A stretch of 64,000 nt of DNA from Symbiodinium natans (taxonomy: Eukaryota; Sar; Dinophyceae; Suessiales; Symbiodiniaceae). The notes beneath the pieces were generated by a model. It was given only the letters and a program-made list of their open reading frames with translations, made no database searches and was not told the origin of the DNA. The stretch's first letter is position 1. The number at the start of each line of letters is the position of its first letter. Both the position numbers and the translations under genes were made by a program. The stretch lies in the NCBI GenBank assembly GCA_905221605.1, contig CAJNDS010002535.1:1028001-1092000 (forward strand), in the 5' to 3' direction. Below, piece after piece: positions 4,902 to 57,700 of this stretch.

Positions 4902-5240
4902 AGGTCACCGGGAGTCCGGGAGTTCCGGTTTTGGCTTCCCAGGCGCCGGAGGAGCTCCTCATGCTTCGGTTGTTTTCCAGGAGGAGGCACCTCCCGATTT
5001 TGGTCCTCAGTCCAGTGCTACTGGTGCAAAGCTTCTTGCGCAGGATTTGCTTGCTGCGGATGGCGTTCTGTCCTGTGGTTCCGCGCTGAAACTTTTTGAT
5101 TTGGTGGTCTCGGAAGCACCGGATGTTGACGGCCGCTTCTCTGGGAGTCGTTCACTGTCGGCCGGTCTCCGTTCCAGGGGCTCCACAGGCTTGTGCGCAT
5201 CTTGCTTTTCTCACCCATTCTCTGTACAGGTCTTCAACAG
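4902..5240 (+). pseudogene. Truncated start of DIRS-like pol frame
   Basis: Just after the gag-like stop, the +1 frame (open from 4843) reads GAGGAPHASVVFQEEAPPDF, then LLAQDLLAADGVLSCGSALK, then SLSAGLRSRGSTGLCASC and HPFSVQVFN. This resembles the lead-in segment of dinoflagellate DIRS-like polymerase proteins. Sense stops at about 5240 where telomere-like repeat begins. No reverse transcriptase, RNase H or recombinase follows, so the element is 3'-truncated. Confidence 0.4.
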
Positions 5241-5250
5241 GTTCATTGAT

Positions 5251-5839
5251 CCCAAAAGCCTTAAAAACAACCTAGCCCTGAAAATTCTAAACTCGAAACC
5301 CGAAACCCTAAACCCGAAAAAGCCCTAAGAAGCCTTGGTTGGCAAACTTTAGCCCCAACAGAAGTACTGGGAGTTGAAAACCCGAAAACCCCCCATGCCA
5401 GAGGGAGATGTCACAAGGGTTTAGGGTCTAGGGTTTAGGGCAAGTATTTCGAAGCATTTTCAACACCCTGACCACAGAGGCAGATATCACAAGTGATTTT
5501 AGGCACGGGCCTCGAGCGAAAATGCAATTTCGGAACAGCAGACGTCACAAGCGACAGGTTGCAGATTTTACAGGCAACGTGTCTCTTACAGATGTAGCAG
5601 TAGGCAACCCGTGTCTATGAAAGTCACAAGTGACACTTTGGAGATGTCACGAGTGACCCGCCGCTCCGGTGTGGATCACAGAAGCAATCCCAGCACAATT
5701 CCTTCCTTTACACCCCTGCTCCATCCACGTTCACACGCACGCACCCCTTATGCAGGAGTAGGTTTCACGTTGTCCGTGGACTTGAGACCCTAAACCTTTA
5801 AACCTCAGCTGTACATGGCAAGCACGCTGAGCAGGCGCC
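5251..5839 (+). repeat. Direct segmental repeat, copy A
   Basis: It begins CCCAAAAGCCTTAAAAACAA and ends CACGCTGAGCAGGCGCC. It matches copy B at 6554-7165 almost base for base, apart from small indels and a 20-odd-base stretch (about 7078-7100) missing here. Both copies contain several AGTGAC/GTCAC motifs around 5620-5660 (copy A numbering). No coding role is seen. Confidence 0.85.
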
Positions 5840-16360: not shown

Positions 16361-17636
16361 TGAAGGCTTCGGGATGCAGAAGGAAAGCATGATTTGGCCA
16401 GTTTCTCCAAGGATCAACGCATGAAAAAGTGTCTGGCGTGTGGCGCTGAAGGTCACAGAGCACGAGAATGCCCAACGAAGGGAGGTGCAAAGCGACTGCC
16501 TGCCAAGCGAGAGGAAGGGCCAGAACGTTCTCCAGATCGTCCTCAACTACAACCTTCTAACCCGAAGATCGCTGAGATGCAGACTGCAGTCGCCGAGGGG
16601 ATCCCTTCGTCCTCATCCAGCACGATTACGTCATCAACTGGGTCGTCAATGCCATCCTCAGCAACGAATGCGGGTGGCACCGAAGGTGTACAAACCACAC
16701 CTGGAGAGCCTGTATGGACCTTGGGCAACTTGATGCAAGCGGCCCAGCAGGTGATGATGGCTAAGAGTGCCGGGGAAAGGGGCGACATGAAGCTCAAGGC
16801 GGTGAAGGTTGTCGAGCTGAACGCGACCAACATTCAAGGGAGCTCGGAACCAATGGCTCTTGCTGACACAGGAGCAACGCACCCCTTACGTCGTCCACAT
16901 TCAGAAGAGGAATGGGAACAAAGTGCGTGGGTTAATGTAATTCTGGCCGGCGGCGAGCAGGTGAAGATGAAGATGAATACCGCAGGCACACTGTTGTTGG
17001 GTGCTGAGGAGTTATCCGGGGACGCCGCTTCGAATGCCATCGTTCCGGTGGGTGAGCTGGTGAAGACCCTGGGGTATCGATTGGAGTGGGGGCCGTCGAG
17101 TTGCCACCTGGTGGGCCCAGATGGGACCATTGTGCGCTTGTCAACCAAGGAAGGTTGCCCTCATATCTCCGAGGCTCGGGCTTTGGAACTCATCTCGAAG
17201 ATCGAAAGGAAGAAGCTGGACCAGTTCACCACGGAGGCCAGGGTGCAGGCGATGGCAAGGACGTTGGACAAGTCATGGTTTGACTACTTGAGCGAGGCCT
17301 GCTATGGACATTCGGGCCAAGAGGACCGGGCGGTGAGTGCGGCCCCGTTCTTGAAGGGCATCCCGGAGGAGGCGTTGTATGGCTTGGCAGCGGATGTGGA
17401 GAATGAGGACGGATGGGAGATCTTGAAGAAGCTGACCTTCCTCAACCGCAGGCAACGCCGACGATTGTGGACCTCGAGGAGTTGGGTGGTCCACCTCTTC
17501 GCTGGGAAGAAGAAGAAGGACGTGTTCAGTTGGCTAAACGATGGAGACCGAGTCCTCTTGGAGCTGGACGCGAGGTCGCAAGCGCACAATTTGTTGGAGG
17601 ATAGTCTGTGGCGGGCACTGTCGTGGGCGGCATCGC
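16334..17636 (+). pseudogene. Copia zinc knuckle, aspartic protease and first half of a methyltransferase-like domain
   Basis: Open to 17893 in this frame. In order: a degenerate CCCH finger (CRYFVKASGCRRKH), a CCHC knuckle (CLACGAEGHRAREC), a retroviral-type aspartic protease with active-site triad in ALADTGATH (about 16857-16883), then SWVVHLFAG (about 17480-17506) and RVLLELDA. The last two resemble motifs I and II of C5-cytosine methyltransferases. Sense leaves this frame near 17636. Confidence 0.6.
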
Positions 17637-18170
17637 AAGATCGCGGCAATCATCGGGGGGCCACCTTGCAGGACCTTCAGCCGCCTTCGGTTCAGGGAGC
17701 CGGGGCCAACGCCAGTGCGATCTCGAGCAGAACCGTACGGCTGGCCGACGCAGTCGGCAGGGGAGAGAATGCAAGTGATACGGGACACCAAGCTGTTTGT
17801 GCGCATGCTCTGGCTTCATGCAAAATCGACAGCGGGAAGGCTGCAGAGCCTTGGTCGGAGGATGTCAATGTCGACGGTGGCGTTTGTCATTGAGCAGCCT
17901 CAAGATCCTCAGGAATACCTGCCCGCCACCGCTCCAAACTGGAGCGAGCTTCCGTCTTTCTGGGACACGGAGTTGTGGAAGGGATATTCAGCGGAGGCGG
18001 GGCTCACTGAAGTCAGCTTCGAGCAGGGCGCCTATGGACACAAAACCACCAAGCCGACGACATTGGGTACAAACTTGATGTCCCTGGCAGTACTCAGAGG
18101 GGGAAAGACGAACGGGGTCTTGGAGCCCTATGACCAGTCCTGTTTAGTACCCGCCAGCAATTCCAATGTG
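17625..18170 (+). pseudogene. Second half of a C5-methyltransferase-like domain in the Copia remnant
   Basis: In the frame at 17541-18272 the sequence reads KIAAIIGGPPCRTFSRLR, with the Pro-Pro-Cys of motif IV at 17661-17669, then RMQVIRDTKLFVRMLWLHA and AFVIEQPQDP, which occupies the place of motif VI. EVSFEQGAYGHKTTKPTTLG and NLMSLAVLRG follow. Together with VVHLFAG and LELD upstream this gives the first motifs of a C5-methyltransferase fold. Cytosine methyltransferases in dinoflagellate Copia elements have been reported (established). Activity is not implied; the target-recognition half is not visible. Confidence 0.5.
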
Positions 18171-27706: not shown

Positions 27707-28565
27707 TCAAGTCAAGGACAGGGTCTCATCGGGAATATCAGAGGCACGTTGCATCCATGCCAAGTAAGAATTGCACGTGGCAGTCTGCAGATCCTCTTTT
27801 GTCGCAACTGCGGTGGTGCGCCCGTCATCCGTAACCCAGCTCATCCATTTCCCTGCCACATAGCGATGCAGAATGCATTTATAGTGACCACTAGTGGTAG
27901 TCTCGCCCAGATGATATATCAGCGATCAGATAGTATGCACAGAGAGTCACGGTGGCAGCATTTGCACGAACAGGAATGAAATATGCACGACCAGCCTCGG
28001 AGCACACAGGATCGAACATCTTTTGCGTGCCTGCCATGGAATGGAGTTGCCAAAACGTTTGATCTGTATCAGCAAAAAGGGTGGTGATGGCGAGAAGGGC
28101 ATATACACAAGTGGTGTGTTGCGAAGGTGGAAATCCTCAAGTTCCATCGGAGCCGCCTGTGTTGCCCATGCCCCAGTGCAGTCAGCAAGAGACTGCTCAC
28201 CTGGTGATACGGTCACTTGTGTGTGTCTGTTTAAACCATGGTCAAATTTTCTCACCAACTTGCCCCCCTGCACAAGCCAAGCTTCCCACGTCCCAAAACA
28301 GAGGATTCGCTGCAGTCTGCCCAGGACAAAAATCTGCAAACTCGGCTGCATCGTGCTGACTGGTAATGTCTGACCAGCCTTGTAAAAGAATACGCCATGA
28401 TAAGAGACCTGTGAGCTGAAACGGTGTGATGGAACGTTGAAGCAGCACACGAAAAGCCTCCCAGGAGCGCCCCAGGAATGAGCACAGGTCACCTTCACAC
28501 GCTGCCAAGCACCAAGCATATGACAAAGCGAAGGAATTTTCATAGCAAAGATTGGATGGATTCAA
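27707..28565 (-). pseudogene. Ubiquitin-specific-protease (peptidase C19) domain of LINE element 2, broken
   Basis: The Cys box reads LLNPSNLCYENSFALSYAW (Cys codon 28545-28547), followed by TSQHDAAEFADF. Sense moves to a second frame near 28335: ADCTGAWATQ and PPFLLIQIKRFGN, the USP PxxLxxxxKRF motif. After two in-frame TGA codons (27947 and about 27926) it resumes YHLGETTTSGHYKCILHR with the catalytic His, KWMSWVTDDGR with the acid, and CNSYLAWMQR as the closing strand, ending at 27707. All catalytic positions persist, but the copy cannot make the protein as it stands. Confidence 0.7.
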
Positions 28566-28576
28566 AAGGGCAGAAG

Positions 28577-29596
28577 TCAAAGCAGCCTTGTAAGCTCCTG
28601 CTGTATCGCCGGTCGGGCTTGCTTGATCTGGAGGCCAGCGATCAGCAAAGACGCCAACCCGCGCCAGCGATTCAGGATGTGAAACAGGTCGTCGCCGGAT
28701 GCATGCCGCAGTGATATTTCTGAAAGAAAGGTGGCAACGGGCCCCTGCATCTCGCCCGTCAGGCGACGTGTCGCCTGGAACTTGTGAAGCAACCCCTCCG
28801 GGGATAGCTCCAGGAACGTGCGGATCTCTGTCAGGTCCTGAAGAAATGAGGCGGGACTCATCGTCGCAAGTTGGGTGTCCGGAACGAGCTCCTCCTTCTG
28901 ACTGTCCCACCTCATGTAGTGCCAATCCCCGCCTTGGGAAAGCCAGCCTTTGCGCTTCAGCGCAGCAACTTTGGTGGGATCCCCCAGAAGACCCTGGTGT
29001 CGCTCCTCTATCTGCTGCAGAAGGAAAAGCATCACTGCGCCCCGCAAGGTTTGGCGAAGTTGCGTCCTGTCGGCCTGGTGTTGTTGTCGCCGGCGAACCA
29101 TCTCCTGGTACATCTGCAATACCACCGAGTCGCTCGCCTGAGAGTTCTTCATCGTCCAGACATGTGTTGTGTCCTCGGCCATGCGCAGTAGCAGATCTTC
29201 TTGCCTCAAGGTCAGCTGGGTTACCATTGACAAGAGATCTCTCGCGAAGTGGTCGGGCCCCGCATTCGAAGGCCTTGAGTAGGAGCCCTCGGTTGTCCAG
29301 GGGCTCTCCCATGGGTCCAGCTCTGGATGGTCTGGGGGGAGAGGAGATCGTCGTGCCGGATCCGGTCGCCTCCTTTTTCCCAAGCCCTGAGGCATGCGCC
29401 CCGGGGTGCGCTGGTTCCTTTGTGGCGTGGCGATGGACCTGTGAACCGGTGTGCTCGGGGACGCCTGGACCTGCTGAAGTCCCAAGTTCCCTTGGGGCTG
29501 CGCCGGGGCTGCCACCATCATCTGGGCAGCTTGTTGCAGCTGTGGAAGATAACCATCGAATAACAGCTGATCGTCCTGCGCCATCCTGACAGCCAA
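28577..29596 (-). pseudogene. Conserved helical region of LINE element 2
   Basis: A 339-codon frame overlapping the 1059-codon frame out of register. The N-terminal third is Pro/Gln/Arg-rich (TPGRMPQGLGKRRRPDPARR). Then come helical heptads (LLSMVTQLTLRQEDLLLRMA) and the block shared with element 1: GGDWHYMRWDSQ, LLHKFQATRRLTGEMQGPVA and ASLLIAGLQIKQAR. The match to element 1 shows this frame, not the longer overlapping one, is the coding one here. No family is recognised. Confidence 0.55.
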
Positions 29597-29599
29597 GAA

Positions 29600-31421
29600 T
29601 TTCTGACAAGAGACACAATTGAAAGGCCACTGCGCATTTATTGGCGTGAGGAGCGGGCCTTTTCAAGAACGTACCACACCAGCGGCAGGGCGATATAATG
29701 CTGCGAGCCAGCAGCTTGCATTTGATGCTCACTTGTGAGGAGCATTTTTGCCATTCAAGCAAATGAATGCGTCGCAAATGCGTTTGCAAATGCTGAGAGT
29801 CAACAACCCATTGCCCGCGCAGACCACAGTGGTTCTTCAAGTGTGAGATTTCGGAAAAGTGGTCTAAGGCATGGTGCCAACCCTGCTTGCGCAACATTGC
29901 GCGTAAAGTTTCATTATATAGCATCGGGCGCGGTTGCTGAGATGTCGGAAGACAGAGGGCACTTGTCGTGGATGCAGAGGTCCGTCGTGTCTGCTGAGTA
30001 TGGACCTTCCACATCTGAGCACAGAGTCTGCCCTCAATGTGTCTCTGAAGATCACCCCATGAACCAAAAGCATGACCGCAGTGCGCACACGTGGGTAGAC
30101 CTTGTATAGAATGCCGCCATCTATTGAAATGACTGCCTGTCAATGGCAAGGATGCCTGATGTTGTTCATTGTAGTGATGCTTAAGAGCCTGAAGAGTCCC
30201 AAAAGAACTCCAGCCTTGGATCGCTATACGGGCTTTCCTGTGGTGCAGCCACATTTCTCTGATGGGTGCTTGCACTTCTCCACACTGCCAGGCCTTGGCA
30301 GGAGCGGGTCGAGGACCTGGCTTCTTTGGAAAGACATCTTCCATTGCCTGCGTAAGCAGATTGTTCAGCTCTTCAGGCGTGGCGGGGCAGTGAGTGTCGA
30401 GTAGGTGGTGGACTACATGTTGCAGCCTTTGGGCGTCCTCTGTGTGATGCTGTGTAGCGCAGCAGAGGGCTTCCTTGTCATATGAGATTGCTGTCGCGCT
30501 GTTGCTCTTTGCATCCACTCGGCGGCGGGACCCCTGATAAGTGCGCAGCGGGAGACTGCCAAAGACCGGAAAGTGACGCCCGCCCTGTTGCCATGCAAAG
30601 AGAGACATATTATGCTCGGGACATGCGTGTCTTGCTTGATGATCAACGCACGCACGTCTGCGCAGGATATAGTCAAGCTGAGTGCAGCCCTGATGGGGCG
30701 AGAAAGTGTGAGCTCCAGCAGCAGTGGTCCAGGTGTTGGTGGCAATGAGATCATGAGTTTCAACAAGCTGTTGAAAGCGGTCCTGATCCACTGGTCGAGT
30801 CTTTGGTGGTCTGACTGCAGGACCCACCCAGTTGGTAGAGGAGTGAAGCGTCGTGTTGAAGTCGCCTGCACAGATCAGGGTGTTACGTACAGGGGTCTGT
30901 GTGATAAGGAGGGAGAGGGCCTGCCATACAGAATCTCGCTTTTGTGTAAGCGACGTTGTTTGGCATTTTGGGCTCCAAACATATTGATACACACAGCACA
31001 CATCTATCGAGCATCCGGCTCGGGGTGGTGTGACACGAACATGCAGGAGGCGTCCCGGAATGACTGATCGCCGTCGAATCGCCTCGGCCATAGGGCACAG
31101 ACGACGGTTGACGCACACCATCACCCCTTGTCCTTTGTGCCCCGCTCCAGAGTACACGATGTGCCAGTCATCGGTGGAATATTCCACGTCAGATGGCCGC
31201 CCGCATTCCTGAATAAGTACAAGGTCAAGGGTGTGAACGAAATCTGACATCCACAGCATGAGCTCATCATATGATGCACTGGAGAGAGGCCCGGTGTTGA
31301 AGGAGACAATACGTAGTCGTTTATTGGTGACGCGAGGCGGTGCACGCTGCGGGGTGTTGATGATGGGTAGGTTGCGCTGAGCATTGAGCGTGTCAACAGT
31401 ACACCATTTTCCTTTGTACAT
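29600..31421 (-). CDS. AP-endonuclease and zinc-finger part of LINE element 2
   Basis: One frame is open from ATG 31421 to 28242 (1059 codons), but only about the first 600 codons look conserved. Endonuclease motifs in order: LRIVSFNTG, LVLIQECG, CCVYQYVW, LICAGDFNTTL, FSPHQGCTQLDYIL and GGRHFPVFGSL. These supply the Asn, Glu, Asp and His metal and catalytic residues of the exonuclease-endonuclease-phosphatase fold. The linker AKAWQCGEVQAPIREMW follows. Then come CAHCGHAFGSWGDLQRHIEG, CGLRGQWVVD with HLRRIH, and CRWCGTFLKR with HANKC. The family nicks target DNA to prime reverse transcription. Reverse transcriptase should sit between linker and fingers and is absent. Confidence 0.65.
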
Positions 31422-45966: not shown

Positions 45967-46494
45967 TAGCCCATGCCTCTAACGTCGACCTCACAAAGCT
46001 AATCGGAAGGGACCTGCTGGCACGCGCGAGGTGGGAAGTGTAAGTTCCGTACGCCTTCACGCGGATCCATTCGGCTCCATGCGGCTCCATGCGGCTCCAT
46101 GCGGCTTCAGTGGGTTTGGGGGTAAGATCAAAAGCCCGTCCTCAATGCATCCCCGAGTTGTGCTGCGTTTGTTCGTGACATGCGTTCTAATGCCCCGAGC
46201 TGTGCTCCGCTTAACCGCGACATACGTTCTAATTCACGCAGCAAGAATACGGGCATCCAAGATAAGAAGGCTGCGTCCGTTTCCTAAATTTCCTGAAAAT
46301 TTTGGGTGTGTAAATTGTCGGGAAATTTTGGAAAGCGATGAAGCAAATTTTCCGGAAATTTAGGGACCGAGGCTTCAGGCTACCCGGAACCAGAAATTTT
46401 CCAGAATTTAGGGGAACGAATCCGGCTTGCGGCCGTTGAAGAGGCCTAGCCTTTCAAAGGGCACAGCCCAGGCCCCAAAATTTCCCGGAAATTT
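45967..46494. other. Spacer with small tandem and dispersed repeats
   Basis: 46062-46108 has three to four copies of GCGGCTCCATGC-type 12-mers. 46270-46495 contains several AAATTTTCCGGAAATTT-like words, one of which also occurs at the Helitron fragment edge (43690-43715). No gene. Confidence 0.5.
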
Positions 46495-47372
46495 AGGGTT
46501 TCAAGGCTTCAGGGCCTGTGTTTAGGGTTTCAGGGCCTTAGGGCCTGTGTTTAGGGTTTCAGGGCCCGGCGTTTAGGGTTTCAAGGCCGCAAAGCCTGTG
46601 TTTAGGGTTTCAGGGCCTCAGGGCCTGTGTTTAGGGTTTCAGGGCCCAGCGTTTAGGGTTTCAAGGCCTTAGGGCCTGTGTTTAGGGTTTCAGGGCCTCA
46701 GGGCCTGTGTTTAGGGTTTCAGGGGTTTAGGGTTTCAGGGCCTCAGGGCCTGTGTTTAGGGTTTCAAGGCTTGTTTTGGGTTTCAGTGCCTCAGGGCCTG
46801 TGTTTAGGGTTTCAGGGCCCAGCGTTTAGGGTTTCAAGGTATCAGGGCCTGTGTTTAGGGTTTCAGGGCCTCAGGGCCTGTGTTTAGGGTTCCAGGGCCC
46901 AGCGTTTAGGGTTTCAAGGCCTCAAAGCCTGTGTTTAGGGTTTAAAGGCCTCAGGGCCTGTGTTTAGGGTTTCACGGCCCAGCGTTTAGGGTTTCAAGGC
47001 CTCAGGGCCTGTGTTTGGGGTTTCAGGGTCTCAGGGCCTGTGTTTAGGGTTTTTAGGGTTTCAAGGCCTCAGGGCCTGTGTTTAGGGTTTCAGGGCCTCA
47101 GGGCCTGTGTTGAGGGTTTCAAGGCCTCAGGGCCTGTGTTTAGGGTTTCAGGGCCTCAGGGCCTGTGTTTAGGGTTTCAGGGCTCAGCGTTTAGGGTTTC
47201 AAGGCCTCAGGGCCTGTGTTTAGGGTTTCAGGGCCCAGCGTTTAGGGTTGCAAGGCCTCAGGGCCTGTGTTTAGGGTTTCAGGGCCCAGCGTTTAGGGTT
47301 TCAAGGCCTTAGGGCCTGTGTTTAGGGTTTCAGGGCCTCAGGGCCTGTGTTTAGGGTTTCAGGGGTTTAGGG
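46495..47372 (+). repeat. GGGTTTCAGGGCC satellite, left part
   Basis: Tandem units of about 23-29 bases that alternate GGCCTCAGGGCCTGTGTTTA and GGGCCCAGCGTTTA, each followed by GGGTTTCA. The units contain TTTAGGG, suggesting origin from telomere-type repeat. The array is cut at 47372 by the LTR element and continues at 56238. Open frames here are repeat artefacts. Confidence 0.9.
47368..47372 (+). other. Target-site duplication, left copy (TAGGG)
   Basis: TAGGG directly precedes the left terminal repeat; the same five bases follow the right one at 56238-56242. Five bases is usual for LTR elements. Because the target is itself TTTAGGG-like, chance agreement is possible. Confidence 0.7.
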
Positions 47373-47678
47373 TACGGGGGGGGGCAACCAAAGGGGGAAA
47401 GGAATCAACCCCGAAGACCGCCCAGAACTTATATTCCCCAGATCGACCAGCACAACAAGCACAGAACACGGACCAGGAGAACCAGGGAAGGGAGTAAAGG
47501 GGGCCTATGCCTAAGCACCTAGGAACCAACCCCAACCCCAACCACGCGGGCTCTACCTTTTTTGAGCTTGTGGCCTTAGTACTTCTGGCCATCTTGAGCC
47601 AAACAAGGTTTCCGGGTACGTTGACCCTTTCAACTCCCAACACTAACTCCTTTCTACAATACCAGCTGCAGCTCCGCA
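47373..47678 (-). repeat. 3' LTR (306 bp)
   Basis: On + it runs from TACGG to CCGCA, so on the element strand it begins TGCGG and ends CCGTA, a near-perfect short inverted end. It differs from the other LTR by two extra G in the G run at 47376-47384 and by C versus T in GGCCATCTTGAGCC (about 47592). Confidence 0.9.
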
Positions 47679-47692
47679 CTCCCCCTGTCCTA
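47679..47692 (-). promoter_or_regulatory. Polypurine tract
   Basis: On the element strand the bases just before the 3' LTR read AGGACAGGGGGAG, then TGCGG. This is the expected position and composition for plus-strand priming. Confidence 0.75.
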
Positions 47693-48049
47693 GGATTTCC
47701 TAGGACACATTGGAGGTGCAGATCTTTGGCCAAAAACTGCCATTAGGGCAGCAGCCAGCTGCTTGAAATGCACAATATGGTTTTACGTCATCCAGGACGA
47801 AATTATAGCACATTGGCTAAACCCACTAACCACAGAGAATCTTTTTTCCACCATGATCCTCTTATCATTGAAGACTCTTCGGCCTTCTTCACCACAAACC
47901 GTGGTCTTCGCTACGCGAAAAACTACTGACTTCTACTATCAGGGATTTCCATACCCTTAATAGTAACCACCACATTTTCAGCGCATTGGCCGATCCAGCG
48001 CACCTGTCTCCAGAAAGAGAAAAACCATCCCTTCATCCATACCATCCAG
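47693..48049 (-). other. 3' untranslated part of the LTR element
   Basis: Lies between the stop of the second frame (48050) and the purine tract. No conserved protein is seen. Confidence 0.5.
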
Positions 48050-51000
48050 TCACTTCTTTTTCCGATGGTTTGCAATACTGAGGTGAAGTTGCAGCAGAAT
48101 ATACTCTAGGTCCGAAACTGTAAGAACAGGATCCTGCACGCACCTTTGAATTGAGGAGACCAATCCTTCTCTCTTTGCGTCCTCAATCGCTTGGCAAGAT
48201 TGACCCAGCTCTGCACTCACAGCGGTAGACGCTTGCGCATCCACATCAGAGGGACGATCCTTTTCCTCAGGACCTTTCACCACTACCACTTCTTCCTTTT
48301 TGGGGCTCTGACTTTTCTCCTTCTTCTTCGTCTTTCCACCGACGTTTGACTTTGTGCTCATTTTCGAGGCTTTTTCCCCTGCAGAAACCACCGCATTGGA
48401 TGATGATCCACCCTTCTCAACGTTCGCCGGCATCTTCTTCGGCTTTGGAACCAGGAGAGTGTAAGGATCTTCGATAGCTGCAGTTTTCCTCTTCTTTTTG
48501 ACCTTTTTTACCTCCTCCTCAACGGCAACCTCCGTCTCCGAAGTCTCAACCACCTCCTTTTCGGCAGGAATATCCTTGCTGGACTCCCTTTCTAGGGACC
48601 TCTTTTTGCCCCTTTTGGGATCTTTCTCTTCTCTCACGTTGGCTCGCTCGAACCATATCCTCAGGTCATTGACCCATTCTTCCACCTCCGCGAGCGAAAC
48701 CTCATACGACTTCACTACTTCGTGAAGTTCCAGCACGGACAGCATACCAGTAGTCCACGAAACCCATTCTCTATCCATCTGGTCAGTATCTCCATTGAAC
48801 TTCAGGAGTTTGAGCAGTGGGTCCGCCTCTGCTCGAGCCAAATCTGTCTTGCCATTGGGCAGAAATGAAATCGCCTCCATCAACAGTTCCGCCATTTTGG
48901 TATCATCGTCATAAGCCATGAAATCCTCCTCACCATCATCGAACTGTTCAGGAGAGATCTCCTTTTCCCCACCTTTTGCACCAGAACTTCTCCTTGGACC
49001 ATCCCTTGGGGGCGTCCTTGGAGACCTTGGCCTCTGTTCATCAAAGACACACCTGTCACCATAACGACACTTCCCAGACTGAGCAAACTGGATGCACCTC
49101 ACACCAGTTGCATCATGCGAGAACGCACACTTCTTTCCAGCGAAGCAGGGTCTCCCCGCCACATAGTATTTGCACCAATACGAATGCAGCACCACATCAT
49201 CTTCTGAATGGATGAATTTGCAGTCTTCACCAAATTTGCAGCGATCTTTTCCCTTACTGAACCAATAGCAGAAGCCTTTCTTCCTCTTCTCCAAGCGCTC
49301 CGCCTCGTACCGGTCCATAGGGCGATTCTGCTCTACATGAACATTGCCATGTGCCTGAGAACTGCTCCCTTCACCCAAGGTGCTATCAGTACTTGATGCT
49401 TGGAGTACAGCTGGAAAACCTGGCCTTGGTCCTACCACCTTCATGATTGGTTTTCCGCCAGCTCCTGAGCCACGCTGAGACGATCCAAAAACATTGAACA
49501 TCTTCATGGAGGCCTTTCTAGTGCCGATCTTCTGCACCCTTTTGATTGGATGTTTCATTGCTCCAACCTTGCATCCAGATACGTTCAAACGACACAACCT
49601 CCTATACCCAGCTCTATATCCCTTTTTCCAAAGAGCCATAAGAATTCTAGAGGCAGTAACATTCTCCACCTCTACCTTTTCCAACGGTCCCTCACTTCCC
49701 GGAACAAACCCATCCAACCCATCCATATCTGAAGACCTTTCCATCTTTTTTGACACCACTTCGTCGAGGTAGTCTTCAGAGATCCAGGGTAAGTTCCTCT
49801 TAGAGGAAGGATTGTCACCATTGTTTGGTCCTTCACCAGGATACCCCTTCGTGCTGTCAAAGATCTTACCAGTAATGCGGTCCTGCGTAGAGAAATTGGA
49901 AGCAACGCGAGAGTACACTGACCACAAGAAAATCCTTGTGCCAGCCAGTCTTGACGACCCACTGGATGTCTCCTCTTCCGGAGAAACTTCTGGCGCTTTG
50001 CCATCCCTTCCAGTGTCACCACTTGTCTCACCTCCAGCATCTTCAATGGGAATAAGGAATTCATTGCTCCCTTGATCAAGCACCGCATCTTGTTGTTCGG
50101 GGATCTCCAGCACCATCCCTGAAGGATCCACTTCCTCATCAGCATCGTCGTCCATCCTTCTCCAGAGAACCTCCAATTGATCAGCACACGTCGCCGCCTG
50201 AAGGAACTCCATCATTTGATCCCTCCCGTGCTGCCAGAGAAATTCGGAATTCACCACTATCCCTTGGCCTCCTAGTCTAAGGAATGGAGCAACCAGGTTG
50301 GCTACCCCTGCCATAAGTTCCACATGAACTTCCATGCCTGGACTGCGACTCCAATCGTAGGCTATTGCCTCCATAGCAGTTCCAAACTTTTCAGTATTTC
50401 TGAATTCCCTTTCCAGGCCAGGAGAAAGCAGTGCACCCATCACCGAAAGAGGATAATTTCCCACCGCCGGCAAGCACGGATCTTCATGGAACGAATGATG
50501 CAAATCTCCGTAATGTCCTTGATCTCTCCTTTCAAAAAGGAGTCTCCCAGTGTTTAACTGGGCATTCAGTTCATCCACTTGAACCATTTCAGCACATATT
50601 CTCTGCGCTGCAGTCGCTATGGCCGGCCAGATAGCACGATCAGCCAAACCACGACGCGTAACCCAAACAGTTGTTGCCGACTGAATCAGTGCACCAGGGT
50701 CATATGCCATGACCACCAATGTACCATCATCCATTCTCTGATCAGCCTCGTCTTCCAGTGCCAGGTTCCAATCCTGTTCGCTTGCACCTTCAGATGACAT
50801 GCTAATAACCAAATTTCGATCCATTTTATTGGACCCCTTCTGACAGTCCCTTTGCCCCACAGGCAACCTGCCAACAGCAACCTTCCAATAAATCCGAGTC
50901 AGAAGACCTTTAACCAGCAATTGCTCAGGATCCTTCTTCACCGGACGAACATCCAATGTCTTCGCACCATCACCGCGGAGTTCATTGCTCCCACCTTCTC

Positions 51001-53401
51001 CTTCGTTTTGGTCAGTCTCCTCGCCAGAAATTTGCACTGCTCCTTCCAGCGCCGTCTCCTGTCCAGCCACTTCTTGCCCAGGAAGAACTTGAGCGCGTTC
51101 AGATACATTCACCTGTCCAGCAACACCTTGCCCAGGTAAAACCTCATCCGTGGAGCCCACCGCCAGCGAACCAACTATAACTGAGCCATCCCTTGCTCTT
51201 TTTTGAGACTGTTCAGTTGGACGAGAAGGTTGTGGTAGCGAAAAAACTTGAGAAGTCACTTCTTGGCGGGTCTCCCCCCGCGACGCCTTGTCGCGCCCTT
51301 CGCCAAGGTGAACCGATTTTTTCTGCCCGTCATTGGGGCCTGAAGAACCACCCATCGGAACATTGCCACGAATCGCAGTTCTCTGTGAATCCCTTTCTTG
51401 CAAAAAGATTTCCCTCATACGTTGCGCGGCAGTGGTCTCCTCCTCGCTTGAATCGCTTGAGGAAGCGGCATAAGAGACCAAAGCCTCCGCCTGATCATCA
51501 TCATCCACCACATCTGCCCACGCTCTGCTGAACCGATACGACAACCCACCACGAGGCTTCAGTTCCAGTGGTTTTGGCTTTTCCACCACTTCCGCCGGTT
51601 GCACTCGTCGTTGTGAACGAGAGCGTGGTACCTGTCGCACCTGTTTTTTATCCAGCAAGGGCCTTCCCCTTTTTACAGGGTTTGATCTTGACCGATACTT
51701 TTTTGTTGGTGGGTTCACCGGCGGCATTCCAACTCCCACCAACTGCAGCTTCTGTACGCACAGCGGAGACCTCTGCGCAAGCGTCCAAGCATCACGGTAC
51801 CTGACCTTATCAAAAAGCTCTCGATAGGAGCCTCTCGGCATTGTTTTTGCACCGGAGCCTTCAGCTTCACGCACCTGAGTGAGGGTTCGCACCGCCTCTC
51901 TTCCAGCTTCCTTGCTCCCAGAAGATTGTTGTACCCGTACAGATGCGTCGGAAGGAACTGCTTTTTCCGGCCCCCCTGGACGATATCGGACACCACCCAC
52001 CAATTGCAAGATTTTACATGCTGTCACTTTGTTGATCCCTTTGTCAACCAAATCTTCCACAAAGATGAACTCTTGCAAGTCGGACACGTTGGTCACACCA
52101 AGTGTAATCATCACCTCACTTACATGAGGGGTATACACCCAGAGGTGTTCGTTGCGAGCCATCCAATTTTCAATTGGCTCCTCTGGATTTTGAAGCCGAG
52201 TACCAGTGGACTCAGCCACCGAATTCTTTTGTTCATCATCTTCTGCTTCATCCAGGATACCCTTTTCACCTTCTTTTTGTGACACATTGGTCATTTGCAA
52301 CGCTTTTGGTGCTGAGGATGATGAAGATTCAGCTCCCCCACTCGCAGGTGGCTGAAAAGTGCTCCTGTCCGAAATCTCCCATCCTCTCTCTTTTTCAAAC
52401 CGGACCTGATTGGCCACCTGTACCAAGTGTTTCAGGGGCGCCAGCCGCTCATCTGACATCTCGTCGTGGGAAAATCTGCAGGAATTTAACCCCTTCCGGC
52501 AATGCCCTTTGAGGTAATAATCGAAACAGCAATGGTGGAACCCCGCGTCCCTTAGTGCCTTCCTGGAAGCATTGTCCCAAGATTTGCCAGGCTCCCAAGT
52601 CCCTTCCAATGCCATGTCATCGTTGTGAAGATACCTGCATGTAGTCCCATATTTACAACCACCTTGATTGTAATACAGACACAGCCGACTTTTTGGCTCA
52701 CCCAACGTAGGTTCACCCTTTGATGCACCTTTACCAAAGTTGTACTTGGCCCGGAAGGCTAAATCCTCCCGCTCCTGCTGTGCCTCATCCACTGTGCCTT
52801 CCTCTGTAGGAGGGTCACCAATGTTCCCATCCTCATCTCCAGGTTTTTGGCTGCTCCTTGGCTCAGTTGGTCCACCCCCTGGCCAACCTTCACCATAACG
52901 ACGATGCTCATAGGAACACTCATCACCATTGCGACACCTCCCCTGATTGAAGAACCTGCATAGCTTGCTGTGTCCAGGTGACACAGTCTTTGGAGTCATG
53001 TGAGCCTTTTTGTACTGATCAGGATCCATATAGGCTTCCATTGGCCTGTTTTCCCTTTTACTCATCTCCTCGATTGCACCATCAAGCTCCTGCAGAAATC
53101 GCTTGGTATCCAACCACAGCTCGTTCCAAAGCTCATCTTTCCCTTGGCTCAGCAACATTGCCACCGTTTCACCCACGACTGGTCCACTAAATCTCCTTTT
53201 CTTGCGTGCCAGTTCGTAGAGCGCGTTGTGGTACTGCTTCCGGGAAAAGGTGATTGTTTTTTCCAAACCTGCACATTCTGTCCCATCGGGCTTCCAACCA
53301 TCACTTTGCAAGATGCTGTATGCACGCCGAGCCTCAACGTTCAGGAATGTATGATCTGCGACACACTCCGTAATCTCGTCCATTGGACGACTCAGCAACA
53401 T
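48050..53401 (-). CDS. ORF2 of the LTR element: 1783-codon six-CCCH zinc-finger protein
   Basis: ATG at 53401. An N-terminal CCCH trio lies at residues about 147 (CRFFNQGRCRNGDECSYEH), 238 (CLYYNQGGCKYGTTCRYLH) and 290 (CFDYYLKGHCRKGLNSCRFS). A SAM-like helical stretch near 430-490 contains VSEVMITLGVTNVSDL. The acidic, Ser-rich middle has no recognised domain. A second CCCH trio lies at about 1375-1440 (CYWFSKGKDRCKFGEDCKF, CKYYVAGRPCFAGKKCAFS, CIQFAQSGKCRYGDRCVF). The C terminus is Lys/Glu-rich with nuclear-signal-like KKVKKKRK. CCCH fingers usually bind RNA; a gag-like RNA-packaging or host-mRNA-binding role is inferred. I see no YxDD, DTG protease or integrase motif. It overlaps ORF1 by 10 bases. 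Confidence 0.8.
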   Translation of the reverse strand: MLLSRPMDEITECVADHTFLNVEARRAYSILQSDGWKPDGTECAGLEKTITFSRKQYHNALYELARKKRRFSGPVVGETVAMLLSQGKDELWNELWLDTKRFLQELDGAIEEMSKRENRPMEAYMDPDQYKKAHMTPKTVSPGHSKLCRFFNQGRCRNGDECSYEHRRYGEGWPGGGPTEPRSSQKPGDEDGNIGDPPTEEGTVDEAQQEREDLAFRAKYNFGKGASKGEPTLGEPKSRLCLYYNQGGCKYGTTCRYLHNDDMALEGTWEPGKSWDNASRKALRDAGFHHCCFDYYLKGHCRKGLNSCRFSHDEMSDERLAPLKHLVQVANQVRFEKERGWEISDRSTFQPPASGGAESSSSSAPKALQMTNVSQKEGEKGILDEAEDDEQKNSVAESTGTRLQNPEEPIENWMARNEHLWVYTPHVSEVMITLGVTNVSDLQEFIFVEDLVDKGINKVTACKILQLVGGVRYRPGGPEKAVPSDASVRVQQSSGSKEAGREAVRTLTQVREAEGSGAKTMPRGSYRELFDKVRYRDAWTLAQRSPLCVQKLQLVGVGMPPVNPPTKKYRSRSNPVKRGRPLLDKKQVRQVPRSRSQRRVQPAEVVEKPKPLELKPRGGLSYRFSRAWADVVDDDDQAEALVSYAASSSDSSEEETTAAQRMREIFLQERDSQRTAIRGNVPMGGSSGPNDGQKKSVHLGEGRDKASRGETRQEVTSQVFSLPQPSRPTEQSQKRARDGSVIVGSLAVGSTDEVLPGQGVAGQVNVSERAQVLPGQEVAGQETALEGAVQISGEETDQNEGEGGSNELRGDGAKTLDVRPVKKDPEQLLVKGLLTRIYWKVAVGRLPVGQRDCQKGSNKMDRNLVISMSSEGASEQDWNLALEDEADQRMDDGTLVVMAYDPGALIQSATTVWVTRRGLADRAIWPAIATAAQRICAEMVQVDELNAQLNTGRLLFERRDQGHYGDLHHSFHEDPCLPAVGNYPLSVMGALLSPGLEREFRNTEKFGTAMEAIAYDWSRSPGMEVHVELMAGVANLVAPFLRLGGQGIVVNSEFLWQHGRDQMMEFLQAATCADQLEVLWRRMDDDADEEVDPSGMVLEIPEQQDAVLDQGSNEFLIPIEDAGGETSGDTGRDGKAPEVSPEEETSSGSSRLAGTRIFLWSVYSRVASNFSTQDRITGKIFDSTKGYPGEGPNNGDNPSSKRNLPWISEDYLDEVVSKKMERSSDMDGLDGFVPGSEGPLEKVEVENVTASRILMALWKKGYRAGYRRLCRLNVSGCKVGAMKHPIKRVQKIGTRKASMKMFNVFGSSQRGSGAGGKPIMKVVGPRPGFPAVLQASSTDSTLGEGSSSQAHGNVHVEQNRPMDRYEAERLEKRKKGFCYWFSKGKDRCKFGEDCKFIHSEDDVVLHSYWCKYYVAGRPCFAGKKCAFSHDATGVRCIQFAQSGKCRYGDRCVFDEQRPRSPRTPPRDGPRRSSGAKGGEKEISPEQFDDGEEDFMAYDDDTKMAELLMEAISFLPNGKTDLARAEADPLLKLLKFNGDTDQMDREWVSWTTGMLSVLELHEVVKSYEVSLAEVEEWVNDLRIWFERANVREEKDPKRGKKRSLERESSKDIPAEKEVVETSETEVAVEEEVKKVKKKRKTAAIEDPYTLLVPKPKKMPANVEKGGSSSNAVVSAGEKASKMSTKSNVGGKTKKKEKSQSPKKEEVVVVKGPEEKDRPSDVDAQASTAVSAELGQSCQAIEDAKREGLVSSIQRCVQDPVLTVSDLEYILLQLHLSIANHRKKK
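53392..53401 (-). promoter_or_regulatory. ORF1 stop / ORF2 start overlap (ATGTTGCTGA)
   Basis: The ten bases contain the ORF2 ATG and the ORF1 TGA. ORF2 is in the -1 frame relative to ORF1. No clear slippery heptamer is seen just upstream, so stop-and-restart translation fits better than ribosomal frameshifting (inference). Confidence 0.5.
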
Positions 53402-55866
53402 CCGTCCTTATCTATTGTTTCATCTTCCAGGAGATTTCGATAAATCTTTTCTCCATAGAGCTGCTTCTGCTCAGCTTCCTCTTGTTCCTTAGAGGATGTT
53501 TTTGAATCGGCAAACCACTCGCGAGACTGCCGTTCTTCCGATTTCCAGTCCCATTGACCGTCGGAACCTTGGTACCATTGACCAGTCTGCCATGAGCCTG
53601 TCCACCATGTACCCCAGCCGCTGTCTTTCCATTTGCGCAGCGTCGAAGAGGAGTCCTCCTCGTCCTCTTCCAAAGCCAGAAAGGTGTCCAAGATTATGGT
53701 ACTATCATCTTCCACTCGTTTCACTGTTCCATTGACAGTATCACCAAATTTGAACTGATGTGCGTTGTTCCCTTCTGCAGGAATCAATACATTCACATCA
53801 CCATGGTCCAAAAAGGCTCCATACCCATTGACGCAGCGCACTAGACCACTGATCTCATCTCCCTCTTGATAGCAATGTTCCCCAGGTGATTCCAAGGCTC
53901 CCGCACGGGGCACTTTCTTTGCATGCTCTTCAGAAACCATCTCTGTATCATCGGCTCCTGGCACATCCTTTGTTTCCACCTTTGGGTCACACTGCTCGTC
54001 CTGCTCCGGCACGAGTCCCACAAGATCATCCATCTTGTGCTCCAGGGGCTCAGGACCTTCCTTTTTTCCAGCCAATGGCCTTGCCTCATCTGCTGCAGTT
54101 CGCTCGGTGTCGACCTCCGGCGAGCTTTCAGATGGCAACACTTCTCCCTTCCTGGGAGTGGACCCACCATTGGAGTCCTTTTTCAAACCTTCTGCAGCAG
54201 GCAAATTTTCTTCCACTGCAGGGCTATTGGATTGGTCATCCGCGGTAGGCGCATTTTCTTCCACCGCAGGCTCCTTTGGCTCCATGGTTTCCAAAAGAGA
54301 ATCACCACTGTCGTTGACCACAGCTGCCGCATTGGCTCCGGTGTAGCCTTCGCCATTTCGTTCCTCGCTGCTAACTTCAGGCTGCACCAGTGCGTCCACC
54401 TGTGAACCTCCATCGTGAGCTGCTACGGAGACCTGCGCCCCATTGTTGCAGTCATCCGCGGAACGTGACACCATATGCGCCTCAACCCGTGCTTTTTCTG
54501 CACTCCAGGTACTATCTGGCACGTTGACCCGCGCTTCATTGGCGCTCCAGGCCTCATCTTCCCGATCAACCGTGTCTCCAGCAGTTTCAGAAGTTTCCTT
54601 TTTCCCTTGAATGGCAGAATCATTGGCACCAAACGAAGAGACCTCCTCAGGCGTAACGCACGATTTTTTCCCTCCGTCATCCAAATCTCCAGGACCATCT
54701 TCCTGAACGACAGGTACCACATCCACCACTCGCTCTTCTGCAGCCGACACAGTTCCGATCTCCACATTGGGCATTTTTTCTTCTGGACCCACCGATTCCA
54801 CCGCTGCCACACCCTCAGAAAGCGCCTCCATCTCTTCCCGATCCAGATGTTGAGCTTCAGCGATGTCTGCTCGATTTCCAGAAACCCCCTCCTCATCAGG
54901 AGAACCCGAGGTCGGGGCGTCACCACCAGCCCTAGGACCGCTATCCCTGATAGTAGAGGAAAAAACTTTTTCACCTACACTATTTACACTACCCTGGAAT
55001 GCCCTCGTAGACTCAGGTGTCGGTGTAGTCGATGAAGGACCCAGTTCAGTCTCCACTTCCAGCCCATTGCCCGAAGGAGACCCAACCACGTTATCACTTT
55101 TCACCTTTTCACCTACATCCGGCAGCGTCCACTTGCTTTCCTGCGTATCCAGGCAGTAGTAATATTGTCTCCCATCTTCGTGGAAGTGCCATTCCCACGT
55201 TGTCCCATCGCACGCTTTGATCAGATGCTCATCTTTCCGAAAACCATCCCTTTCAGAGACTTGATGCATCTCATCCTCTTCTTCTGACAACTGGCGCAAC
55301 CTTTCAGCCTCCATCTGTAAGATCTCCTCCTCCCCCATGGCGTATTCAGCAGTTGGTGCAGCTTCAAAGCCGTCCGCACCCTTCTGTTCGTAACCGCTTC
55401 CACCACCCAGGGAACTCGCCGAGGGATCCCCTTTAATCTTGTTCAGAGGCCTCCTGGCAGCTTGCAGCACCTCTCCACTCAGATTGGTCTGAGACCCTTG
55501 GTCTACCATTCGGCCCGAAGTCGAAGTAGACGGCTGATACCCATGTTTTTGCAACACGCGTAAAACAGTCACCTCCATTTCACGGTCTATACCACCAGTC
55601 GCGTCCCAGTTCCTTTTTTCACCAGGCTTTGGCGATACAGAAACAGCACGTCCTTCAGCTTCAGCATTGCTAACCATATCCACATTGGGATTCATACCCA
55701 CATTGGAGTCTTCTGCAACCAAGGCTTCTTCCAGATGTTCTTCAGCGCCAGGCATCACCTCTTCCAGCACCGCCCTTTCACCCAGAGACTCAGCTGCACC
55801 ATTTCCAGCTCCACCATTCTGTCCACCATCCGAGGAAGGCTGGAGCCATCGCTTGGGAGAAGGCAT
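53392..55866 (-). CDS. ORF1 of the LTR element: about 824 codons with WW and S1-like domains
   Basis: The open frame extends to a GTG at 55899, but the first ATG is 55866 (MPSPKRWLQPSSDGG), chosen here. It lies about 60 bases after the 5' LTR. A WW domain occurs at codons about 220-250: TTWEWHFHEDGRQYYYCL then SKWTLPD. The long acidic Ser/Glu middle is disordered. An S1-like RNA-binding fold lies near codons 665-725: ISGLVRCVNGYGAFLDHGDV, then FGDTVNGTVKRVEDDSTIIL. A Trp/Gly segment (WGTWWTGSWQTGQWYQGSDG) follows. Stop TGA at 53392-53394 overlaps the ORF2 start. By position it takes the place of gag. Its similarity to host RNA-processing proteins suggests captured host domains (inference). 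Confidence 0.8.
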   Translation of the reverse strand: MPSPKRWLQPSSDGGQNGGAGNGAAESLGERAVLEEVMPGAEEHLEEALVAEDSNVGMNPNVDMVSNAEAEGRAVSVSPKPGEKRNWDATGGIDREMEVTVLRVLQKHGYQPSTSTSGRMVDQGSQTNLSGEVLQAARRPLNKIKGDPSASSLGGGSGYEQKGADGFEAAPTAEYAMGEEEILQMEAERLRQLSEEEDEMHQVSERDGFRKDEHLIKACDGTTWEWHFHEDGRQYYYCLDTQESKWTLPDVGEKVKSDNVVGSPSGNGLEVETELGPSSTTPTPESTRAFQGSVNSVGEKVFSSTIRDSGPRAGGDAPTSGSPDEEGVSGNRADIAEAQHLDREEMEALSEGVAAVESVGPEEKMPNVEIGTVSAAEERVVDVVPVVQEDGPGDLDDGGKKSCVTPEEVSSFGANDSAIQGKKETSETAGDTVDREDEAWSANEARVNVPDSTWSAEKARVEAHMVSRSADDCNNGAQVSVAAHDGGSQVDALVQPEVSSEERNGEGYTGANAAAVVNDSGDSLLETMEPKEPAVEENAPTADDQSNSPAVEENLPAAEGLKKDSNGGSTPRKGEVLPSESSPEVDTERTAADEARPLAGKKEGPEPLEHKMDDLVGLVPEQDEQCDPKVETKDVPGADDTEMVSEEHAKKVPRAGALESPGEHCYQEGDEISGLVRCVNGYGAFLDHGDVNVLIPAEGNNAHQFKFGDTVNGTVKRVEDDSTIILDTFLALEEDEEDSSSTLRKWKDSGWGTWWTGSWQTGQWYQGSDGQWDWKSEERQSREWFADSKTSSKEQEEAEQKQLYGEKIYRNLLEDETIDKDGCC

Positions 55867-55920
55867 TGCTTCTTGATCCCAAAAACCTTGAGAGAACACT
55901 TGACCGCAGGGAACCTAATT

Positions 55921-55933
55921 TGGGCTCATAACC
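55921..55933 (-). promoter_or_regulatory. Primer-binding site for initiator tRNA-Met (half-tRNA type)
   Basis: On the element strand, GGTTATGAGCCCA follows the 5' LTR directly. Its complement TGGGCTCATAACC carries a CAT anticodon in the loop context of initiator tRNA-Met (GGGCUCAUAACC). Copia and Ty5 are known to prime from this internal tRNA site rather than from the tRNA 3' end. Confidence 0.8.
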
Positions 55934-56237
55934 TACGGGGGGGCAACCAAAGGGGGAAAGGAATCAACCCCGAAGACCGCCCAGAACTTATATTCCCCAG
56001 ATCGACCAGCACAACAAGCACAGAACACGGACCAGGAGAACCAGGGAAGGGAGTAAAGGGGGCCTATGCCTAAGCACCTAGGAACCAACCCCAACCCCAA
56101 CCACGCGGGCTCTACCTTTTTTGAGCTTGTGGCCTTAGTACTTCTGGCCATTTTGAGCCAAACAAGGTTTCCGGGTACGTTGACCCTTTCAACTCCCAAC
56201 ACTAACTCCTTTCTACAATACCAGCTGCAGCTCCGCA
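55934..56237 (-). repeat. 5' LTR (304 bp)
   Basis: Runs TACGG to CCGCA on +, one substitution and two G residues different from the 3' LTR. On the element strand it contains TTTGGCTCAA, shared with the 3' end of the dinoflagellate spliced leader, about 70-80 bases from its start. It also contains AATATAAG near its end. Confidence 0.9.
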
Positions 56238-56960
56238 TAGGGTTTCAGGGCCTCAGGGCCTGTGTTTAGGGTTTCAAGGCCTCAGGGCCTGTGTTTAGGG
56301 TTTCAGTGCCTCAGGGCCTGTGTTTAGGGTTTCAGGGCCCAGCGTTTAGGGTTTCAAGGTATCAGGGCCTGTGTTTAGGGTTTCAGGGCCTCAGGGCCTG
56401 TGTTTAGGGTTTCAGGGCCAAGCGTTTAGGGTTTCAAGGCCTCAAAGCCTGTGTGTAGGGTTTCAAGGCCTCAGGGCCTGTGTTTAGGGTTTCACGGCCC
56501 AGCGTTTAGGGTTTCAAGGCCTCAGGGCCTGTGTTTGGGGTTTCAGGGTCTCAGGGCCTGTGTTTAGGGTTTCAGGGCCCAGTGTTTAGGGTTTCAAGGC
56601 CTCAGGGCCTGTGTTTAGGGTTTCAGGGCCTCAGGGCCTGTGTTTAGGGTTTCAAGGCCTCAGGGCCTGTGTTTAGGGTTTCAGGGCCTCAGGGCCTGTG
56701 TTTAGGGTTTAGGGCCCAGCGTTTAGGCCTCAGGGCCTGTGTTTAGGGTTTCAGGGCCTCAGGGCCTGTGTTTAGGGTTTCAGGGCCCAGGGGGGGGGTT
56801 CAAGGCCTCAAGTCCTGGCGTTTTGGGTTTCAGGGTTTCAGGCCCAGCGTTTAGGGTTTCAAGGCCTCAGGGCCCTCAGGGCTTGTGCTTACATTTCAGG
56901 GCCCAGCGTTTAGGGTTTCAAGGCCTCAAGGCCTGTGTTTAGGGTTTCAAGGCCTCAACG
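56238..56960 (+). repeat. GGGTTTCAGGGCC satellite, right part
   Basis: Same unit family as 46495-47372, resuming with TAGGGTTTCAGGGCC immediately after the LTR. The two parts were one array before insertion. Degenerates after about 56780 into TTTTTCAAGG-rich sequence. Confidence 0.9.
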
Positions 56961-57700
56961 CCGTGTTTTTCAAGTTTTTCAGGGTTTTTCAAGGTTTTTC
57001 AAAGTTTTTTAAGGTTTTTCCATGTTTCTTCGGGTTTTTTCAGGGTTTTTCTGAGGAAGGGCTGCCCCCGCGACCTTTTCACAGCCTAATTTCGGTCAAG
57101 GGGGGGTCGTATTTTTGGATTTTAAAGGCAAAATAGTCTTTGGAGACCCTCCTTGCCTCAAACTCCGACCCCCCCTTGAGAGGGAAAGTTTACCTCAAAA
57201 AACACCCCAAAACGGGGACCTCAGGCTTGGCCTAGACCCGCAATGAAAATGCGAATTTTTAGTACTGAAATCGAGGGTTCTGGGTGGCCTCTCGTTTTCT
57301 GGGTTTTTGTGTTTTTCAAGTTTATCAAGACTTTTCCGCGACCTTTTTCACAATGATTTTGGTCGGGGGGGGGGGGGGATCATTTTTCGATTTTAAAGGC
57401 AAAATAATCTTCGGAGACCCCTCCTTGCATGAGGGAAAATTTGCTTCCAAAAACACCCCAAATGGGGGGGACCCCAGGCTTTTTTTCCCTTCTTTTTTCA
57501 GGGTTTTTTTTATTTTTTAAAATTTTTCAAGATTTGAGCCTCAGTTTAGGATTTCAAGACCTCAAAGCCTCGCGTGGTTTAGTATCTCCACCTCCTCGTT
57601 TGTTAAGTGGAAGTCATTCATTTTGTTATTGAACCATCCTAATAAAAAGAAGAAACTTTTTATTTCTAATGTTATGGGAACTTCGGGTGGGTGGGTGGGT
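56961..57700 (+). repeat. Dispersed repeat family R1 (first copies) and T-rich sequence
   Basis: 57062-57303 and a diverged partial copy at 57335-57480 share CCGCGACCTTTT, GGATTTTAAAGGCAAAATA, GGAGACC and GAGGGAAA phrases with 62500-62990. The flanks are tracts of TTTTTCAAGG. No gene. Confidence 0.7.

Follow-up and report, generated by a model that had tools for sequence, protein, structure and literature searches.

A window of 64,000 nucleotides from the dinoflagellate Symbiodinium natans (GenBank assembly GCA_905221605.1, contig CAJNDS010002535.1, positions 1,028,001 to 1,092,000 of the forward strand) contains a long terminal repeat (LTR) retrotransposon with one very large gene and no recognizable polymerase gene (pol). 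We interpret this locus as one member of a high-copy, non-autonomous family of LTR retrotransposons, recently inserted and now broken, and the family as a probable satellite of a copia element that targets telomere repeats, lacking pol and carrying a conserved, putatively RNA-binding protein of its own (rough probability 0.82 for both statements). To our knowledge, LTR elements without pol are usually non-coding or encode only gag.

The element, oriented along the minus strand, combines paired LTRs with a target-site duplication (TSD), a primer-binding site (PBS) and a polypurine tract (PPT), as expected of an LTR retrotransposon (Table 1). Its LTRs differ by one mismatch in 301 aligned columns and a two-G length difference in a homopolymer, exactly as described by a first-pass annotation of the same sequence, and the TAGGG duplications, primer site and purine tract reported there were located, each adjoining its LTR or element end. 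The PBS resembles the copia half-tRNA-iMet site, and priming of the Hemivirus type, by the anticodon region of initiator tRNA-Met, is a possibility. An extended PPT block, GTGTCCTAGGAAATCCTAGGACAGGGGGAG, is identical in 13 of 15 loci compared (the exceptions are L019 and L020). Rfam and tRNA scans of the 64-kb window returned no matches.

Table 1. Features of the giant-gene element and its flanks, in window coordinates
Feature	Position	Strand	Remarks
Telomere-like tandem array, left flank	46492..47364	.	TTTAGGG inside 22/29-bp units; insertion target
Target-site duplication, left copy	47368..47372	.	TAGGG
3' LTR	47373..47678	-	306 bp, TG...TA ends; element on minus strand
Polypurine tract	47679..47690	-	GGACAGGGGGAG; adjoins 3' LTR
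C-terminal part of giant gene	48050..53401	-	1783-aa frame; MLLE end, CCCH 1-3, SAM-like, central region, CCCH 4-5 and damaged 6, basic tail
CCCH fingers 4, 5 and damaged sixth	49034..49270	-	last His of the sixth lost
CCCH fingers 1-3	52466..52960	-	
MLLE (PABP C-terminal-like) remains	53297..53493	-	limits approximate; deletion breaks frame near 53392-53407
N-terminal part of giant gene	53392..55866	-	824-aa frame from ATG; WW motif, acidic linker, S1-like, MLLE start
S1-like RNA-binding domain	53689..53868	-	below Pfam cut-off in window copy
WW-like domain	55117..55212	-	limits approximate; family profile vs PRP40-type WW chains, E 4e-6
Primer-binding site	55914..55933	-	GGTTATGAGCCCAAATTAGG; adjoins 5' LTR
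5' LTR	55934..56237	-	304 bp
Target-site duplication, right copy	56238..56242	.	TAGGG
Telomere-like tandem array, right flank	56238..56968	.	same array as left

The first-pass annotation described a structurally complete copy whose interior consists of two novel frames of 824 and 1783 codons. Both frames are present at the positions given in Table 1, but the completeness did not hold up: judged by their relatives, the two frames are one gene for a protein of ~2,600 amino acids (aa), which is broken in the window copy. The N-terminal open reading frame measures 835 aa when counted from a GTG and 824 aa from the first ATG. Protein searches found 31 relatives of the long frame and 43 of the short one, together 61 distinct proteins, and three of them, P0001 (2606 aa), P0002 (2609 aa) and P0003 (2435 aa), read both parts in a single frame, which is the reason for regarding them as one gene and not two; many shorter relatives likewise match both window frames. 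By motif, both sides of the junction are visible in 28 of the 61 relatives, and all of these except P0023 and P0036 (26 of 28) retain GKITGM, the core of the MLLE domain. The window copy lacks the residues at this place, at the frame junction near 53392–53407, and has lost the last histidine of the sixth CCCH finger, and on both grounds we consider it broken. A programmed frameshift between the frames was ruled out, as relatives spanning the junction read through it and the window copy has no such stretch there. A scan of IMG/VR for relatives of ORF2 found none.

RNA binding is the likely theme of the giant protein, as predicted from its CCCH, S1 and MLLE domains. Pfam models for CCCH and MLLE exceed the cut-off in P0001–P0003 and S1 falls below it, while among 35 aligned members (E up to 1) CCCH models match in 30, MLLE in 29, S1 in 18 and WW in 3. 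The family profile, besides its WW match, finds a PABP MLLE chain with E = 2.4e-4. The SAM-like label of a segment near residues 1230–1310 of P0001 was assigned by eye only, and a central region (P0001 ~1690–1960) is conserved with no family match. No reverse transcriptase, integrase or protease was detected in the giant protein by Pfam, NCBIfam or PDB sequence profiles. Pol matches were absent from the two window frames, from all 3 full-length relatives and from all 35 aligned members, and no pol domains are listed for any of 13 relatives retrieved in a search admitting proteins up to ~4,560 aa. Neither the window frames nor the scanned relatives thus provide a protease, integrase, reverse transcriptase and RNase H of their own, and the statement of the first-pass annotation that no pol is visible is borne out by profile searches of both.

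Other copies of the element were sought in the whole assembly of 759,417,921 bases in 2543 contigs, and the counts given below for genome searches refer to scored candidates only. The window LTR gave 40 scored matches among 1383 candidates, and LTR matches spaced 8.55–8.6 kb occur in eight contigs, including that of the window. The number of matches and the recurrence of same-spaced pairs in eight contigs indicate neither chance nor a local assembly duplication, and thereby exclude a single-copy artifact, which the first-pass annotation had named as a refuting case. Fourteen fetched loci (window included) possess paired LTRs and the giant gene, and L027 and L028 have one LTR match each. Locus L020 (C2507:10300-14700) was rejected as an LTR pair, as identical sequence flanks both of its LTR matches, which marks a tandem duplication; the duplicated unit comprises a 3' end together with a piece of the giant gene in a decayed state. 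The search with the giant protein yielded 26 scored copies among 2411 candidates, window included, 25 of which span the full query (residues 1–1783). Twenty-four of the 26 contain no stop, and 11 lie in stop-free frames of 2,596–2,627 aa; copies with unbroken giant-gene frames exist elsewhere in the genome. The leader junction of the giant-gene type occurs exactly 453 times (control 0), so that the advice of the first-pass annotation to look for other copies in the same genome led to a large family. Five long-frame copies were checked at their ends. All five have LTRs of ~287 bp, the PPT block, identical TAGGG/CCCTA duplications and the PBS (with one different base in C2411), and their LTRs resemble the window LTR less closely, with 229–238 identities over 320–328 alignment columns.

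To what extent the protein is conserved by selection was assessed from pairwise ratios of nonsynonymous to synonymous divergence (dN/dS, ω; NG86) among 17 loci picked by similarity to the window LTR, within and across subfamilies (the window group, the L018/L019/L021 group, and L026). The ratios leave out tblastn matches below 40% identity and any codon that is gapped or a stop; comparisons with saturated dS (L020 against the window group and several domain comparisons involving the WW domain, N-terminus and tail) gave no ω. Between subfamilies, the better-covered copies (~1,750 codons or more) have ω of 0.27–0.35 at dS of 0.67–0.93, compared to 0.66–0.89 in a neutral simulation based on one pair and one transition share. 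On this comparison we conclude from the sequences that the giant protein is under purifying selection, in agreement with the suggestion of the first-pass annotation that the proteins are selected. The short or partial copies L017, L020, L027 and L028 gave ω from 0.20 to 0.55, or none where dS was saturated, and ω inside the window group ranges from 0.24 to 1.11. By region, ω across subfamilies is 0.11–0.22 in the CCCH clusters, 0.07–0.18 in the SAM-like segment, 0.17–0.30 in the central region, 0.19–0.41 in MLLE, 0.20–0.67 in S1, and 0.57–0.64 in the acidic linker. Marked changes in dS from one part of the gene to another suggest that the copies are mosaic. The LTRs of subfamily members L018, L021 and L026 are 81–90% identical to the window LTR, yet the dS of their genes is 0.67–0.93; this mismatch may reflect constraint on the LTR or exchange between elements.

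Elements with related ends and a copia polymerase are present in the same genome. Two of them, C1113 and C155, have paired LTRs, no match to the giant protein, and long frames with copia polymerase. Their LTRs are 83–84% identical to the window LTR and match along its whole length, and common to all three elements are the ~31 bp that follow the 5' LTR and the ~140 bp leading up to the 3' LTR. C1113 has the same PBS as the window element and an identical PPT block, each differing by a single base in C155, and the two LTRs of C1113 are identical save for one C in a homopolymer run. The RVT_2 domain matches with E = 9.3e-11 in C1113 and with 2.6e-5, below the cut-off, in C155. An rve fragment of C155 (E = 2.1e-4, below the cut-off) lies in L024 upstream of the RVT_2 frame, and the best match to integrase chains by PDB sequence has E = 0.016. 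When the C1113 pol frame was used as the query, 3471 candidates yielded 44 scored matches, among them the query itself; none has a stop within the matched region, and 14 lie in open frames of at least 3,000 aa. Copia polymerases overall are represented by 150 scored matches of 2237 candidates. Six further pol copies were checked at both ends, and the LTRs of all six start with TGCGGAGCTGCA and end with CCCCCCGTA, followed by the PBS GGTTATGAGCCCA, with the same PPT block as in the window. The giant-gene element hence has its termini in common with an RVT_2-bearing element of the same genome, as expected of a copia derivative. An autonomous partner with the same LTR, which the first-pass annotation had advised looking for, was found in the sense that pol elements exist, but with related and not the same LTRs, and its refuting case of pol between the same LTRs is encountered in a correspondingly modified form, with related LTRs around a different interior. 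Of its two proposals for the nature of the element, a non-autonomous but protein-coding LTR element is supported, and an autonomous type using unrecognized enzymes is not, given that the copia polymerase sits in elements with related LTRs, PBS, PPT and target.

The partner also bears on the possibility that the giant protein is a divergent gag that forms or joins the particle, with only the enzymes coming from the partner. Such a role would fit the sole, selected and zinc-finger-containing protein of the element, and the gag region of the partner likewise has CCCH and CCHC fingers (mostly below the cut-off; zf-CCHC E 0.001–0.01; those of C155 have E from 5e-4 to 0.06, all below it). However, profile comparison with the partner gag recovers the CCCH finger only (probability 54% and 43%), and the giant protein has no match to a capsid-like family, no CCHC knuckle among its Pfam matches, and a very large size. 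We therefore consider a divergent gag unlikely.

Some other features of the pol elements were noted. Between integrase and reverse transcriptase, the partner pol (L022:6266-9409, plus strand; L024:5580-7988, minus strand) has an HxD...H...RxS pattern that by eye looks like that of 2-oxoglutarate/Fe(II) dioxygenases; family searches returned no match for this stretch. In C155, an extra stretch of ~3 kb (L024 ~2800–5700) splits pol. The pol copy at C868 (L049, L050) has LTRs of unequal length (218 and 211 bp) and is flanked by the 5-mer TAGGG on one side and CCCTA on the other, as might result from recombination between two elements or arrays.

The giant-gene and pol elements also resemble each other in their insertion sites, which the first-pass annotation had proposed to compare. 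Among 27 elements (14 with the giant gene, C1113, C155, the six further pol copies and the five long-frame copies), 23 have identical 5-bp duplications, and 19 of these 23 are TAGGG or CCCTA; the rest are AGGGG, TGGGG, CCCGA and CAGGG. The elements with no identical duplication are L015, which has a small extra repeat at its end, L026, where one base is different, L019, whose 5' boundary lies outside the stretch examined, and the pol copy at C868. Of 17 loci, 14 have telomere-like joint flanks (L020 is scored as lacking them), compared to baselines of 6.0% in 2753 window segments and 16.6% in 940 segments from 20 arbitrary 1-kb stretches. The binomial probability of 14/17 at the 16.6% baseline is 5e-9 when segments are treated as independent, although they overlap and are thus not independent, and telomere-likeness counts exact 7-mers only. 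The recurrent insertion in TTTAGGG-type arrays, mostly in one register, is that of a telomere-repeat-specific element. TTTAGGG has been described as the repeat of dinoflagellate telomeres, and copia elements of S. microadriaticum are reported to be activated by heat (PMC11453091). The titles and beginnings of abstracts retrieved from the open-access literature contained no description of this element or of LTR elements in dinoflagellate TTTAGGG repeats.

These results lead us to propose that the giant-gene element arose from a copia element by keeping the cis-acting parts (LTR ends, PBS, 3' terminal region and PPT) and replacing gag-pol with a single gene for an RNA-binding protein of ~2,600 aa with WW, S1-like and MLLE domains and six CCCH fingers. 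Packaging, reverse transcription and integration of its RNA would be carried out in trans by a very abundant copia element whose termini are related and which inserts into TTTAGGG-type repeats, usually with TAGGG duplications. We consider this mobilization in trans highly probable. The giant protein could coat and stabilize the RNA of its own element and steer it to translation or to partner particles, with MLLE perhaps recruiting proteins with a PAM2 motif in the manner of poly(A)-binding protein; such a ribonucleoprotein or packaging role, suggested by the RNA-binding modules and the PABP-like MLLE, which may attract factors for translation or stability, is the one that we tentatively favor, at somewhat less than even odds. 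More speculatively, the satellite may have evolved its giant RNA-control protein as a means of competing for its copia partner's machinery or of taming it. If so, the two elements would form a two-part system in which the partner without pol is kept by selection and is not mere debris. Hundreds of leader junctions, one selected giant protein and a nameable pol partner in the same genome make it a testable question why an element that borrows its enzymes keeps a protein of its own, and the common, mostly register-specific insertion into TTTAGGG-type repeats provides a natural example of LTR elements that target telomere repeats.

Several observations weigh against this interpretation, among them the state of the giant gene in the copies with LTRs nearest to those of the window element. 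The 14 LTR-paired copies have 6 LTR mismatches over 4112 aligned columns, or 0–2 sites per copy, and despite these few differences every one of the 14 has at least one lesion in the giant gene, with 43 frame switches and 18 stops altogether (matches of fewer than 30 residues or no more than 40% identity, LTR gap columns and L020 were excluded, and the frame switches include inverted pieces in L017 and L019). It may be that the protein is not strictly needed in cis by each copy, or that the damage followed insertion. At the observed LTR divergence, five or six substitutions per gene copy would be expected, so that much of the damage is probably older than the insertion, although assembly indel errors could contribute. 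The lesion load at nearly identical LTRs suggests that damaged copies can be mobilized through trans action of the protein or of the partner. The target argument is weakened by the abundance of telomere-like repeats in the genome, where exact TTTAGGG-type 7-mers cover ~10% of 20 arbitrary 1-kb stretches. As for the partner, the 5' LTRs of the six further pol copies (218–229 bp) resemble the window LTR closely over only part of the alignment, the match along the whole LTR is limited to C1113 and C155, whose gag-pol splits over several frames, and the integrase signal is weak by both Pfam (2e-4, below the cut-off) and PDB sequence (0.016). The role of the partner is deduced from common ends and target, not from observed mobilization.

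The frequency of damaged copies with nearly identical LTRs, which suggests that broken copies may be mobilized, and the host-type RNA modules could also be explained if the protein served, in trans, the host or all of the copia family, for instance by acting on RNA or DNA of telomere type or by controlling mRNA, with the copies spreading as passengers. Selection on so large a multi-copy protein would be hard to maintain if its benefits were fully shared, and no host copy outside an LTR element was seen, though none was specifically sought; we regard this scenario as improbable. A captured host gene, recently duplicated in an LTR element and decaying without function, would account for the host-type domains and for the damage found in all 14 LTR-paired copies, including that of the window, and is nevertheless very unlikely in view of the low ω at dS of 0.67–0.93, lowest in the CCCH and SAM-like segments, and of the long stop-free frames in 11 of the 26 scored copies. 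Hidden polymerase and integrase folds in an autonomous element, for which the conserved central region with no family match would leave room, have a minimal probability given the profile searches, which found none (a structure model of the C-terminal part, with pLDDT of 30, was not used), and the existence of a pol partner with related ends.

The family can be compared to the closest known systems. The Ty1/copia elements of the same genome (C1113, C155 and relatives) have the same LTR termini, PBS, PPT block, 5-bp TSD and TTTAGGG-type target, and differ in carrying gag-pol with RVT_2 in place of the giant gene. BARE-2, TR-GAG and LARD are non-autonomous LTR elements of plants that keep gag or have non-coding interiors. 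The present family resembles them in its intact cis-acting parts and in enzymes presumably supplied in trans, and differs in its selected giant, putatively RNA-binding protein; it is not a TR-GAG, as similarity to the partner gag at the level of sequence profiles is limited to the CCCH finger, nor a LARD, as the interior is a long coding gene under selection. Ty5 of yeast is a copia-group LTR element. Ty5 is aimed at telomeric silent chromatin, with its integrase drawn to Sir4 (PMC4700185). The telomeric aim is common to both, but the insertions described here fall within the repeat units themselves, for the most part in a single register. SART1 is a non-LTR element that inserts into telomeric repeats (PMC7265360), unlike the elements found here with their LTRs, PBS, PPT and 5-bp TSD.

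Besides the giant-gene element, the window contains a 1059-aa frame at 28242–31421 (minus strand) with an Exo_endo_phos domain (E = 7.5e-8), as in LINE-type elements, and a 499-aa frame at 16394–17893 (plus strand) with a CCHC zinc knuckle (E = 1.9e-4), possibly the gag of another retroelement. The left (3') LTR of the window element holds TTTGGCTCAAG on the minus strand, which matches the 3' half of the dinoflagellate spliced leader, and TTGGCTCAAG is present in the LTRs of all six pol copies. These spliced-leader-like stretches may be due to chance or may be a relict. The 21-nt spliced leader itself, which marks the host as a dinoflagellate, has 205 exact matches in the assembly, compared to 0 for the control.

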